A stretch of 37,986 nt of DNA from Enterococcus viikkiensis. Its GTDB lineage: Bacteria; Bacillota; Bacilli; Lactobacillales; Enterococcaceae. The position numbers and the translations under genes are program-made. The DNA is taken from assembly GCF_005405345.1 (NCBI RefSeq), contig NZ_BJDW01000025.1, positions 1-37,986 on the forward strand, read 5' to 3'. Below the pieces are notes generated by a model. The model did no database searches. It saw nothing but the letters and a program-made list of their open reading frames with translations, and was not told where the DNA came from. Shown here in pieces: positions 175 to 17,324 of the stretch. The first letter of the stretch is position 1, and every line of letters starts with the position of its first letter.

Positions 175-1317
175 TTAGAGGATGTCTTTCATGTAATCGA
201 AGACCTTCTTTTTGTTCTTATTCCTATTATCTTTGGTCGCAGATGCATACTCATAAGATTGTGAAATATTTTTATGGCCAAGTTGGTTTTTTATATATAT
301 TGGATCAGCTTCGGCTAAAATCATGGCGTCAGCTCTTGCATGTCTAAAAGCGTGAGAAGTTATCCTAGGAAGACCGGCAAGTTTGCAAGTCTCTTCAATA
401 TAATCATTTACTGCATCGTTAGAAATTGGCCATGTGTTTTGCTCGTTCACAAAAATTAAGTTTCTTGGATTTTTAACTTTTCCTAAAATGACACGTTCAT
501 TTTGAATTCTCTTATGTTTTTTGAGCTCCATAAATAGAGAGTAGGGGACATCGACGTCTCGAATACCACTTGGAGTTTTAGTATCGCCAAGACCTCGATC
601 TTCTTCATCATTTTGATAAGCCCGCTGAATTTTAATTACTCCGTGTTTTTCATCTAAGTCAGACCAAAACAAGGCTGCAATCTCTTGATATCGGCATCCA
701 GTGTAGAGCTGCGCCAAGACAAAATATTTACTAATAGTGTCAGGGCGAGCTAGAAGTGTAGCTCTGAATTTCTTTGTCTCCTCGTAACTAATCGTGATAT
801 TTTTATCATGTTCGGGTTCGACACCTGTTAGCTTAGCGTTTCTAGCTGGATTAGAATGGATATACCTCATATCAACAGCTTCAAGAAAGACGGCTTTACA
901 GATTTCATGTCTATTTTTAACTGTTGTGGTAGATAGAGCGTCGCCTTTGATCCCACCTTCGCTGCCTAACCAATTCAAAAACTTTTGATAGCTTAATTTT
1001 GTAACACCCAAAAGGGTCTGCTGATCGCCAAAGAACTGTTGAAGATTTTTTCTTGTCAGTAAATATCTTCTTAAAGTTCTATTCGATACTTTTCCTCGTT
1101 TAAAAGTATCTACATATTCATCAAAAAAATCGAGTAGGTTAGTTTGGTGGACAGATTCACCACGAGAAACTTTACTTAAAAACTCAATTTCAGCTTCTTT
1201 AACTGCTTTTTTTGTAGGGCCTGTAAGCATCTTGCTTTCCCAAGTATTTGTGATTGGGTCCTTATACCTAAACCGAAGTCTCCATTTACCCTTTTCGATC
1301 ATTTTCGGTTCTGCCAT
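175..1317 (-). CDS. int: Tyrosine integrase
   Basis: Site-specific recombinase that would integrate and excise the prophage at the 77-base core. The 380-residue product has an N-terminal arm-binding segment (about 8-55), a helical core-binding domain (about 60-160) and a catalytic domain with R209, K247, H322-x-x-R325, H348 and nucleophile Y357, all in the expected spacing, so it looks intact. The ATG at 1317 is chosen because GAAAGGA lies about nine bases upstream on the minus strand. An in-frame ATG at 1368 has only a poor ribosome site. The gene sits beside attL and its arm repeats, transcribed toward the left end, the usual arrangement for Gram-positive temperate phages. Confidence 0.95.
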   Translation of the reverse strand: MAEPKMIEKGKWRLRFRYKDPITNTWESKMLTGPTKKAVKEAEIEFLSKVSRGESVHQTNLLDFFDEYVDTFKRGKVSNRTLRRYLLTRKNLQQFFGDQQTLLGVTKLSYQKFLNWLGSEGGIKGDALSTTTVKNRHEICKAVFLEAVDMRYIHSNPARNAKLTGVEPEHDKNITISYEETKKFRATLLARPDTISKYFVLAQLYTGCRYQEIAALFWSDLDEKHGVIKIQRAYQNDEEDRGLGDTKTPSGIRDVDVPYSLFMELKKHKRIQNERVILGKVKNPRNLIFVNEQNTWPISNDAVNDYIEETCKLAGLPRITSHAFRHARADAMILAEADPIYIKNQLGHKNISQSYEYASATKDNRNKNKKKVFDYMKDIL

Positions 1318-1448
1318 AATCAATTGTCCTTTCTGATTATTTAGTATTAAATCAGGAATAGAGTCCATAAAGCCTATTAATTCGCATTATTTTCATACTC
1401 CATTCTGATTTTTAGATATAAAATCAAACGTATGTTCTTTTTGGCGTG

Positions 1449-9363: not shown

Positions 9364-9386
9364 GTAACTGTGAAAGGGTGGTACTC

Positions 9387-10388
9387 ATGGAGATGAAAGA
9401 ACAGTTTGTAAATTCTGTAATTCGGAACATGGAGCCAGAACTTGAAGCAAAGCAACTTAGAAAACTAAAAATCATTTTAACAATCAATTTAGATAAAGTC
9501 CGATTAGAAGAAGAGCGTCGAGACGTGATCATTTATGATGAGTCATCAGACTTAGCAGCATATAAACAGTATTTTGTATCGATGAAATTACGAGGGCTGT
9601 CAAAAGGAACTGTAGAACTAGCGATGAGGACAATAGACAAGTTTAATCGTTGGGTCCGAGTTGCTTTTAAAGACGTAACTACAAACGATATACGACTCTA
9701 TATCGCTCACCGAGAAATGAACGATCATCTATGCACGGCTACTTTGGATAGAGAGCGCGGTTGTATCTGCCGTTTTTTCCGCTGGCTGTTTGAAGAGGAA
9801 TACATCCCTAAAGATCCTGGCCGACGCGTTGAAACAATCAAAGTTGAGAAGCGACTCAAAAAGGCCTTTACACCAATTGAGGTTGAATTAATGAGAAACG
9901 CGTGTGTGAAACCTAAAGAAAAAGCGGTCTTTGAATTATTGCTTTCAACTGGATGCCGAGTGACTGAACTAACTTTGTTAGCTATGGAAAACTACGATCA
10001 ACAATCAGGATCAATAACCGTGATCGGTAAAGGCAATAAAGAGCGGAGAGTTTTCGTAAATGCCCGCGCAAAAGTTGCCGTAGATAATTACTTGAAACTG
10101 AAACCGCACATGCTTGGCCCGATAATTTGTGGCTTGCATGGAGTCGGAACTGGTATGACTGCGAATGGAATTCAAAAGATGATCAAAGAAATCGCTAAGC
10201 GTGCGAGTGTTGCATACGCTCATCCTCATAAATTTAGAAGGACGGCTGCAACTTTTGCGATTAAACAGGGCATGGAAATCAATAATGTGCGGATTTTCTT
10301 GGGACACAGCAGCATCAGCACTACGCAAGGGTATATTGATGTGAGCGGTATGGACTTCAAGCAGATTCATGATCGGTATATCGCTTAA
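9387..10388 (+). CDS. Second tyrosine recombinase (XerC/D-like)
   Basis: A complete second tyrosine recombinase of 333 residues in the middle of the early operon, far from the attachment sites. The N-terminal SAM-like core-binding domain is at about 52-148 (YKQYFVSMKLRGLSKGTVEL). The catalytic residues are all present: R191 (STGCRVTEL), K215, H281-x-x-R284, H307 and Y316 (LGHSSISTTQGY). It is as short as XerC/XerD and is not similar in sequence to the integrase at 175-1317. It may resolve phage multimers or act on another site. The partner site is not visible. ATG at 9387 after AAGGGTGG. Confidence 0.9.
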   Translation: MEMKEQFVNSVIRNMEPELEAKQLRKLKIILTINLDKVRLEEERRDVIIYDESSDLAAYKQYFVSMKLRGLSKGTVELAMRTIDKFNRWVRVAFKDVTTNDIRLYIAHREMNDHLCTATLDRERGCICRFFRWLFEEEYIPKDPGRRVETIKVEKRLKKAFTPIEVELMRNACVKPKEKAVFELLLSTGCRVTELTLLAMENYDQQSGSITVIGKGNKERRVFVNARAKVAVDNYLKLKPHMLGPIICGLHGVGTGMTANGIQKMIKEIAKRASVAYAHPHKFRRTAATFAIKQGMEINNVRIFLGHSSISTTQGYIDVSGMDFKQIHDRYIA

Positions 10389-14877: not shown

Positions 14878-15408
14878 ATGGCTAAACTAACAGAAAAACA
14901 ACATCGTTTTGCAGATGAATATATTCGATTAGGCAATGCAACGGAAGCGGCAAGGCTGGCGGGGTATAAAAAGCCTAATCCACAAGGTACAGAAAACCTA
15001 GCAAAACCTAGTATTAAATCCTATATTAACGGCGTTCTTGAAGAAATGGCATCGAAGCGAATTATGCAGGCTTCTGAAGCTATGGAACTGTTAACTACTA
15101 TTGCTCGTGGCGAAATGGAAGAGACAATGTATATAGGTACTTCTGACGGTGTAATCACTATCGAGGATAAAAAGCCGGACATAAATCAACGAACCACCGC
15201 TTTGAAAGAGATACTTAAACGTTATCCAATTGATCGTGAAGGTAAAGAACGATTATTACAAGCTCAAGCAGACAAGGCTACAGCAGAAGCCGCACTTGCT
15301 AAGAATAAAGCTGATAAATTAACTCAAAGCGGAAAAGTTAATGAGTTGTTACAATCGCTTCTAGACGTTAAGTCTGGAGGTGATGGAAGTGGTCAAGCTG
15401 ATGTTTAG
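14878..15408 (+). CDS. terS: Terminase small subunit
   Basis: DNA-recognition subunit of the packaging motor. The 176-residue product begins with the typical KLTEKQHRFADEYIRLGNAT and the helix-turn-helix EAARLAGYKKPN, followed by a central oligomerisation region and a helical, alanine-rich C-terminus. The GAGGTGG ribosome site lies upstream. In the ancestral arrangement terL starts inside its 3' end (GTG at 15389). That start is still present but leads only nine codons before a stop, because an HNH endonuclease gene now separates terS and terL. Confidence 0.9.
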   Translation: MAKLTEKQHRFADEYIRLGNATEAARLAGYKKPNPQGTENLAKPSIKSYINGVLEEMASKRIMQASEAMELLTTIARGEMEETMYIGTSDGVITIEDKKPDINQRTTALKEILKRYPIDREGKERLLQAQADKATAEAALAKNKADKLTQSGKVNELLQSLLDVKSGGDGSGQADV

Positions 15409-15468: not shown

Positions 15469-15999
15469 ATGGAAATGTGGAAAAGAATAACAGATTACCC
15501 TAACTATGAAGTGAGCAGCTTGGGGAACATTAGAAATTCAAGAGGCAAAATAATGAAACAGAGAGTCACTAGGCGTAATTATAAAGAAATCGGACTAAGA
15601 AATGGCACCGATAAACAGAAGTTTTTCTTAATACACAGGCTGGTCGCTAAGTATTTTCTAGAGGAAATCGAATCGAAAGCGTATGTTAACCACAAAGATG
15701 GAGATACGTATAATAATAACGTTAATAATCTAGAGTGGGTCACACAATCTGAAAATCAGTTACATGCTTACAAAACAGGTCTTCAGAAACTGACACCAGA
15801 GCAAGTAGAGAGACTCAGAGGCTTCGCTGAGGACAAGAAACGTCCTATAAGAGTAGTAAATAAAAAGCTAGGAATAGATGCAGCTTTCGACAGCATCGCT
15901 GAAGCAGCGTCAAACGTAGAGTGTAACGAAAAGACTTTAAGAAATGTTTTGAAAGGTCGAAATAAATCGAGATTAGGTTATAAGGTCACATATCTGTGA
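15469..15999 (+). CDS. HNH homing endonuclease (NUMOD4-HNH)
   Basis: Product of 176 residues with three modules: a NUMOD4 segment (WKRITDYPNYEVSSLGNIRN, about 4-23), an HNH_3 core (HRLVAKYFL, then VNHKDGDTYNNNVNNLEWVT) and a C-terminal NUMOD/HTH part (IAEAASNVECNEKTLRNVLKG). Free-standing endonucleases of this type spread by cutting related phages near their own insertion site. It carries its own expression signals: a TATAAT at 15449-15454 (weak -35) and a terminator overlapping its 3' end. It is inserted in the 5' end of terL, and about 110 bases downstream terL has a 5-base insertion at its P-loop codons. Confidence 0.9.
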   Translation: MEMWKRITDYPNYEVSSLGNIRNSRGKIMKQRVTRRNYKEIGLRNGTDKQKFFLIHRLVAKYFLEEIESKAYVNHKDGDTYNNNVNNLEWVTQSENQLHAYKTGLQKLTPEQVERLRGFAEDKKRPIRVVNKKLGIDAAFDSIAEAASNVECNEKTLRNVLKGRNKSRLGYKVTYL

Positions 16000-16032: not shown

Positions 16033-17324
16033 TTGTTAAAATTCAGTACCAAACAAACTCAAAACATTAATCAAGTAATTTCAGGTATAACTTTTGAATT
16101 AAACGAGGGCACTTAACTCCCCGGAGCGGAAAAACCACTGCTGATATCTTTAAAATGGCAGACTTCTATTTACGTTCTCCTGACCAAAACCATATGGTCA
16201 CAGCTTATAATCAGGAACAAGCCTATCGGATGTTTATGGATGGCGACGGTCTCGGCTTAGCCCATATATTTGATGGATGTTCTGATATTCGGCATGATGA
16301 ACATGGGGATCATTTGCTTTTATACGCACCAAATGGAGAAAAGAAAATTTATTACAAAGGTGGCGGAAAAGTTAATAGTGTAGGCGCTATTACAGGTATG
16401 TCGCTAGGTTCGGTTACCTTTCTTGAATTTAATCTACTGCATAAAGATTTCATCAATGAGTGCTTTAGGCGGACGTTTGCTGCAGAATGGCGCTATCATC
16501 TAGGCGAACAAAATCCGCCGGCTCCCAACCATCCCAATTTAGAACTGTTAGAACGTTTCGAGAAATCGGGACGTTTTTTATTTAGACATTGGACTCCTGA
16601 TGACAATCCCATTTTGTCTGCTGATCGAAAGCAACAACTGTATGACGAGTTGTCTAGTAGTGAGTATTTACTGGATCGTGACTGGTACGGTAAACGCGTG
16701 CTACCACAAGGTGTTATCTACTCAATGTTTGGGAAAGACAATAAGGTCGAATTAATAAAAGGCCGAGTGATAGAAACGTTCTTTACAGCGGATGGCGGAC
16801 AGTCGGATGCAACTACTTGTGCTTTCTGGTTGGTAACGAATTATGAGGGTAAGTTTTATTTGTACCGTCTTGCTAACTATTATCACAGCGGATCAGACAC
16901 CGGAGTTACTAAAGCTATGTCTATTTATGCTAAAGAGATCAAACAATTTGTGACGTGGTGTTATGACAAGTGGAAAGAACTTCCGCATTGGAATTGGTTC
17001 TTTGTCGATCCAGCTTGTAAAACGCTTAGAACAGAGCTTGAATTGATTGGTGTCGGAACAGAAAAAGCTGACAACAATAGCTCTGACAAAGTATCTAGCA
17101 ATGGAATGAAGATTGAAGTCGGTATTGAGCGACTGCAAAATACGATACAAAGTAAACAATTCTTATTACTAGATACAAACGATAAATTTGATCACTACAA
17201 TTTCGAAAAAGAATTATCTATGTATGTTCGTAACGATAACGGACTACCAATCGACAAATACAATCATGCGCTTGATGAAGCGCGTTACGGCAACAATTAT
17301 TTTTACAAGACTTATATCGCCTAA
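16033..17324 (+). pseudogene. terL: Terminase large subunit, frame broken by a 5-base insertion
   Basis: ATPase/nuclease of the packaging motor. From TTG 16033 (GAGGGTGAT upstream) the frame reads LLKFSTKQ to FELNEGT and stops at TAA 16114-16116. The rest, from PRSGKTTADIFKMADF onward, is in the frame of the ATG at 16155. Removing five bases (TAACT, or equivalently ACTTA) joins NEGT to PRSGKTT and restores the Walker A motif and a 428-residue protein, normal for the family. The nuclease part is intact, with acidic residues in ADGGQSDA, FVDPAC and ALDEARY. Without recoding the long product lacks the P-loop and cannot package DNA. ACT stands on both sides of the stop, so a ribosome hop is possible. 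An assembly error is the simple alternative. Confidence 0.8.

Follow-up and report, generated by a model that had tools for sequence, protein, structure and literature searches.

The window analysed here, i.e. the whole 37,986-nucleotide stretch of contig NZ_BJDW01000025.1 of Enterococcus viikkiensis, carries a prophage in which an HNH homing endonuclease gene adjoins an interrupted terL, with 119 nt separating the stop codon of the HNH gene from the codon at which terL resumes. The features of this region, all on the forward (+) strand, are as follows.

14878..15408, + strand: terS, terminase small subunit (Terminase_2, E 5.9e-25; phrog_51)
15469..15999, + strand: free-standing HNH endonuclease gene between terS and terL (HNH_3, E 6e-11; NUMOD4, E 1.4e-8)
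16033..16116, + strand: first frame of terL, from a TTG start through 27 sense codons to ELNEGT, then TAA
16111..16113, + strand: proposed take-off codon ACT (Thr), from the sequence and from the take-off position of 21 distinct Thr-type breaks
16114..16118, + strand: gap TAACT, presumed untranslated, i.e. a stop codon (TAA, 16114-16116) followed by C
16116..16118, + strand: proposed landing codon ACT (Thr), the same codon as at take-off
16119..17324, + strand: second frame of terL, 401 sense codons running from PRSGKTT, which completes Walker A, to the end of the gene (TIGR01547, phrog_10250)

The HNH gene also gave an I-HmuI NUMOD-like match, weak and under its cutoff. A scan for structural genes found portal, major head, tape measure, tail and endolysin genes in the prophage. 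Two integrase-like genes (phrog_1 and phrog_216) were seen in this contig with its one prophage, at 175-1368 (- strand) and 9378-10388 (+ strand).

As the original prediction had it, and with the coordinates it gave, terL reads NEGT-stop and resumes with PRSGKTT five bases later in another frame, from the CCC at 16119; the repeat of ACT 16111-16113 at 16116-16118, in the frame of the downstream terL, was likewise confirmed by the window sequence. The 27 residues up to and including take-off match the N-terminus of intact relatives (ELNEGTPRSGKTT), and what follows the break belongs to the PBSX family of TerL proteins (TIGR01547, E 5.5e-54; phrog_10250, terminase large subunit) and has no Pfam match. 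The take-off codon ACT is directly followed by the stop TAA, as in T4 gene 60-type bypassing, and the landing codon is identical to it (ACT/ACT). A search of the window's genome by DNA and by protein returned one place each, i.e. no second terL copy of this kind, and megablast returned no near-identical phage or plasmid record for the window. Two other causes of the break were discarded: sequencing or assembly error is ruled out, the break recurring in independent records, and a group I intron is ruled out because 5 nt is too short.

The distribution of the break was assessed with a degenerate pattern (EGT, a stop plus two bases, then xxxGK), in which stop+C and a Thr landing codon with a free third base were built in for the Thr type. 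Scanned over IMG/VR, it matched 27 stretches, all 27 of which proved to be terL P-loops whose first frame ends in EGT and whose resumed frame runs on (L429 and L440 with almost nothing upstream, L437 ending 35 codons downstream; L numbers are our locus labels). For one of them, L258, BLAST gave only 22 % identity between its terL and the window-type query, and the terL of L229, found separately and broken too, is 23 % identical to that query. In the order, where 345 genomes were scanned, only the window and Enterococcus hermanniensis matched, and in the phylum, with 398 genomes, only the window did; a reversed control pattern gave no match among the genomes listed for these two sets. A degenerate viral scan for the Ala type, whose pattern was badly drawn, returned two contigs with one identical unrelated sequence.

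Altogether, breaks were recorded at 49 places, of which 27 are distinct within 60 bases on either side; 21 of these are of the Thr type, some being near copies. The other designs, which came from reading HNH-adjacent terLs, are given below, each as take-off codon, gap and resumed reading.

L013/L014: EGTPR(CGA)-TAACCGT-SGKTT, Arg to Arg over 7 nt
L154 (Ruminococcus flavefaciens MAG): FLE(GAA)-TGAC-GTTASGKTT, Glu take-off, 4 nt, landing on GAC (Asp)
L182 (Limosilactobacillus caviae): VWY(TAC)-TGACTTAT-GGASSGKS, Tyr to Tyr over 8 nt
L080: YGGA(GCC)-TGACT-IRGGKS, Ala take-off GCC, landing on ACT (Thr)
L486/L487: VWY(TAC)-TGACTAC-GGASSGKS, Tyr to Tyr over 7 nt
L500: YGGA(GCT)-TAGCT-KGGGKS, Ala to Ala over 5 nt

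Because stop+C and the Thr landing were part of the pattern, only the 11 distinct breaks found without it (the window, L004, L013, L229, L258, L353, L154, L182, L080, L486 and L500) were counted for codon matching. The gap starts with stop+C right after the take-off codon in all 11, and the landing codon is synonymous with the take-off codon in nine, the exceptions being L080 (Ala to Thr) and L154 (Glu to Asp). Counted by design, landing matches in five of seven (Thr, Arg, the Ala of L500, Tyr over 7 nt and Tyr over 8 nt). The third bases of the 21 Thr-type breaks are pyrimidine at both codons in 18 (identical in 11), ACA/ACG in one and ACT/ACA in two. The two Tyr designs, L182 and L486, have HNHs that are 97 % identical and the same Tyr landing; their final frames differ because the gaps are of 8 and 7 nt, and both restore VWY-GGASSGKS, the reading of the intact phage LfeSau (HFVEVWYGGASSGKS).

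These features bear on a recoding alternative, a conventional frameshift (-1, or else +1) close to GAG-GGN-ACY that would add residues such as GHLT before PRSGKT. Many Thr-type breaks do read G-(H/N/Y)-L-T in the resumed frame, and the unmatched landing codon of L154 goes with a GAA UGA C that we take to resemble the RF2 +1 site. Leu-Thr in the resumed frame is nevertheless forced by ACY-TRA, which always yields a YTR (Leu) codon; the wobble base of the Gly codon varies (C, A, T, G), altering the residue in the shifted frame and not in frame 0; and gaps of 4, 5, 7 and 8 nt require shifts of differing sign, yet all restore the P-loop. Moreover, the resumed frame is open for just four codons ahead of resumption in 9 of the 21 Thr-type breaks, no -1 re-pairing is possible in the GAA-GGA versions, and the spacing of Walker A would be spoiled. 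We therefore regard a simple frameshift as improbable.

Termination followed by reinitiation, with TerL made as two chains, is given a very small probability. It draws on an SD-like GAGGG upstream, on an ATG, GTG or TTG that five of the six non-Thr designs hold in their resumed frame (ATG or TTG in some), and on the Streptococcus pyogenes type, where a TTG in the resumed frame is the place at which annotators start terL. Set against this, 18 of the 21 Thr-type breaks have no ATG, GTG or TTG in the resumed frame before resumption (L440 being cut by the contig end), the chain would be split inside the P-loop, and the N-terminal part is still recognisable.

Broken and intact sites were compared for signals around the take-off. 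The take-off codon is ACY in 17 of 18 broken and 26 of 85 intact homologues (Fisher p 5e-7; the sequences are not independent), GAG precedes take-off in 15/18 Thr-type broken and 38/85 intact sites (p 0.004, relatedness uncorrected), and pairing with the anti-SD is slightly stronger at broken sites (energy p 0.027, relatedness uncorrected). The GAG enrichment and the pairing may point to Shine-Dalgarno help. No stem-loop at the take-off or other stimulatory RNA structure was found at these sites, the fold of the window having a z of +0.72 and broken and intact sites being alike.

A 40-nt insert (hand-counted) was also observed in the terL P-loop YGGAA/GGGKT of L057 (2105-2250) and L078 (697-850), with an HNH gene adjoining. 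The relatives 11b and phi10:1 are intact and read YGGAAGGGKSALG. The landing codon matches in L057 (GCT/GCA) and not in L078 (GCT/GTA), the stop does not directly follow the Ala codon, unlike in the 11 pattern-free breaks, and the insert fragments have a possible hairpin (z -0.29 and -2.43). These inserts, left out of the 27 distinct breaks, are possibly a longer bypass. That breaks lie at five different positions, over gaps of 4 to 8 nt (perhaps 40 nt, with L057/L078), suggests several independent origins.

The closest comparison was provided by E. hermanniensis DSM 17122 (G008; L004), where a break of identical design lies between the same parts with an HNH gene adjoining, whose protein is 73 % identical to that of the window. 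The two differ synonymously on either side, by GGC/GGA 5' of the break and by CCCCGGAGC/CCTAGATCA 3' of it. In sixty-base steps, identity is 87-100 % over 11 of 12 steps in terS and upstream (the remaining step having 60 %), 52-78 % from about 15374 to the break, and 83-100 % in eight steps from 16143 to about 16620, so that 19 of the 20 steps on both sides of the 15374-to-break block are at 83-100 %. The divergent block resembles a cassette that was exchanged and has its end at the P-loop. Divergence is not confined to this putative cassette, however, since identity falls again (51-83 %) past about 16620.

Codon changes between the two species were then used to judge whether terL is maintained. 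The 27 codons 5' of the break comprise 12 identical, 9 synonymous and 6 nonsynonymous; the first 170 codons 3' of it 122, 47 and 1; and the remaining 231 post-break codons 73, 82 and 76, respectively. All 401 post-break codons give dN 0.15 and dS 1.49, and the post-break codon changes between L485 and L486 are 69 synonymous versus 10 nonsynonymous. Judged by these counts, terL downstream of the break is kept under purifying selection, a pattern not expected of a dead gene. A null mutation that leaves terL broken and the prophage defective, which the original prediction held out as the plain alternative, would fit a frame truly interrupted in the P-loop and the frequency of decay in prophages; the recurrence of the break in E. 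hermanniensis and many further phages, the purifying selection 3' of it and the portal, major head, tape measure, tail and endolysin genes found leave it unsupported, and we hold it to be highly unlikely.

The HNH gene was considered from two directions. Starting from terL, 162 loci were taken by similarity (60, the best 80 of 127, and 22), partial matches at 26-30 % identity being left out (L413-L423, 11 loci); removal of 51 duplicates and one locus without a P-loop left 110 distinct loci. An HNH gene lies upstream of three of four broken and none of 105 intact terLs in this set (with the best 80 of 127 in one part; Fisher p 2e-5), one further intact terL having too little upstream to judge. 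Two of the three HNH-bearing broken loci are query loci (the window and L316), and without them the figures are 1/2 and 0/105, relatedness uncorrected. Seen the other way, the similarity sets hold 106 distinct terLs that have upstream sequence in view and no HNH, and 105 of these are uninterrupted.

Starting from HNH genes, 312 distinct places were collected, 179 with a downstream ORF, and their contexts, partly read base by base, include at least 13 distinct loci with a broken terL when the 40-nt type is counted. Sister HNHs accompany different breaks: the window (Thr over 5 nt) and L013 (Arg over 7 nt), whose HNH is a 59 % identical orthologue of the window's; L154 (Glu over 4 nt) and L227 (Thr over 5 nt); and also L182 and L486. 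Such pairs are what we would expect from repeated selection for a P-loop that cannot be cut and can still be read. An HNH tree was built from rows with 13 broken, 4 intact and 45 other loci drawn at random (L487 being misplaced among the others). On it the label 'broken' is not clustered (4 changes, with all 500 shuffles as low; bootstrap unsettled) and only the sister pairs are firm; the HNHs of broken terLs may have one origin.

In six loci (L243, L305, L465, L497, L498 and L525; terL identified by phrogs) an HNH gene lies upstream of an intact terL. Uninterrupted P-loops in HNH-carrying phages had been named beforehand as what would speak against the original prediction, and these six loci come near to that; their HNHs are distant relatives of that of the window. 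In addition, 24 of the 27 pattern loci, some with little upstream sequence (under 400 nt in at least L429, L432, L440 and L441), have no HNH of the window's family within 4 kb in view, and one of the three that do has it about 2 kb off. L353, for instance, has a break without a window-family HNH, and in the S. pyogenes prophages Javan447 and Javan523 the break is present with no HNH annotated beside terL. A break can thus exist without the HNH gene, and some HNHs of the wider family are found next to intact terLs. The terLs of Javan470, Javan178 and Javan157, at 94.8-97.8 % identity, are annotated full-length. In Javan447 (L452, 2498-3709) and Javan523 (L569, 1198-2409) terL is annotated from a TTG inside the break, and would read MTPRSGKTT, without the N-terminal part.

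Some other ATPase/helicase-like genes, named by eye, also have an HNH gene 26-91 nt ahead of their P-loop (L490, L512, L466-L474 and L010), a hint that P-loop DNA may be a common HNH target. In L239, L241, L242, L249 and L267 an HNH gene is followed by a group I intron-like 3' end (ATAGTCC) and a terL-like exon; judged by eye, these HNHs are probably intron-encoded, and intron-like loci (e.g. L239 and L242) were excluded from the broken/intact comparison.

The comparison of terLs with and without the HNH gene, proposed with the original prediction, thus gave a divided answer, with HNHs in 3/4 broken and 0/105 intact loci on the one hand and many HNH-free breaks found by the pattern on the other. 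The link between HNH genes and breaks is suggestive, not strict. It may be that the hop is real and the HNH incidental, or that the break is an escape allele against the nucleases of competing phages, with no cassette. The 24 pattern loci without a window-family HNH, the S. pyogenes prophages and the HNHs upstream of intact terLs and of other P-loop genes would agree with this; the restriction of HNHs to broken terLs in the similarity loci (1/2 versus 0/105 even without the queries), the differing breaks that go with sister HNHs at one and the same P-loop and the divergent block in the window/E. hermanniensis comparison argue the other way. On balance we think this explanation rather unlikely. 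The prediction that the HNH gene and the break form one mobile cassette, the break shielding the target, has weaker support than that of a hop, with the association and the divergent block in its favour and the looseness of the association against it.

The ribosome hop put forward in the same prediction is strongly supported by the comparison, in that the break recurs, gap lengths and frames vary, landing mostly matches and selection continues downstream. Taken together, recurrence, varied gaps, matched codons and selection argue against decay, simple frameshifting and reinitiation. We conclude from these sequence comparisons that the break in the window's terL is probably a short programmed translational bypass, i.e. 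a stop-hop; hopping as such is very likely and the cassette of HNH gene and break plausible. The ribosome would translate to ACT (Thr27) and stall at a poorly terminated UAA-C; peptidyl-tRNA-Thr would release, the ribosome advance five bases and the tRNA re-pair on the second ACU. Translation would then restart at CCC and give an uninterrupted NEGT-PRSGKTT Walker A. With less certainty, the persistence of the break would be due to the loss of the site that the neighbouring HNH homing endonuclease recognises or cuts. The HNH gene and the break would move as one cassette, and the break could outlast the HNH gene as a resistant allele.

In T4 gene 60, a 50-nt gap with a stop after the take-off codon GGA and a matched GGA landing has an HNH gene, mobA, nearby, and the interruption is missing from relatives (PMC5009743, PMC3014915, PMC11194080). 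The terL breaks share with it the take-off codon followed by a stop, the matched landing, the nearby HNH gene and the uninterrupted relatives. They differ in the gap (5 nt versus 50) and in that no take-off stem-loop was found in them; furthermore, the T4 gene encodes a topoisomerase with a single design, whereas here it is terL, in many phages and several designs. To our knowledge, T4 gene 60 is the only well-studied natural bypass in phages. The terL hop very likely works like that of gene 60, without a take-off stem-loop or long gap, and in several designs.

For Streptomyces phage Hau3 and for prophage Strep C.1, a review cites the suggestion of bypassing in terL and discusses it as possibly regulatory (PMC5009743). 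We read the Walker A region of phiHau3 (L565, 2329-3995) as GGC-TTACTCCGGT-AAG, with the Gly codons GGC and GGT linked across 10 nt. Its break falls at the same protein site as those described here (terL Walker A, LKGWG / GKDPLLA) and uses Gly-Gly codons; unlike them, its 10-nt gap begins with the codon TTA (TTAC) and not with a stop, and its annotated HNH gene does not lie immediately ahead of terL. For the tape-measure gene of Corndog (Cluster O mycobacteriophages), the report describes an HNH insertion for which a bypass was considered and a non-AUG start is possible too (PMC4351075). It resembles our case in having an HNH gene beside an expressed phage gene with suspected ribosome bypass, and differs in that the gene is not terL and its N-terminus is unresolved there.

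Synthetic stop-hops were reportedly obtained in E. coli by Weiss et al. in 1987; they are alike in being short hops between matched codons and differ as artificial constructs. Stop-hops, in which the ribosome jumps a short way forward across a stop from one codon to a matched one, are described in the review (PMC5009743); the existence of shorter-distance bypasses with matched codons, it adds, has been presumed for a long time. No report of such a break in terL of Bacillota phages was found in a search of open-licence papers.

As a general reading, we lean towards the view that natural short stop-hops are recurrent in phages and that HNHs targeting the conserved P-loop of terL repeatedly selected small cleavage-blocking inserts, which ordinary bacterial ribosomes skip through re-pairing at a matched codon. 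Such breaks mislead gene callers, two S. pyogenes prophages being annotated with a terL start at an internal TTG. If the reading is true, the terL breaks would be the missing class of short natural bypasses, in an essential gene of many phages; as many phages and several designs are involved, codon matching, stop context and gap length could therefore be read from nature and put to the test. They would also offer a simple route by which selfish endonucleases and their targets co-exist.
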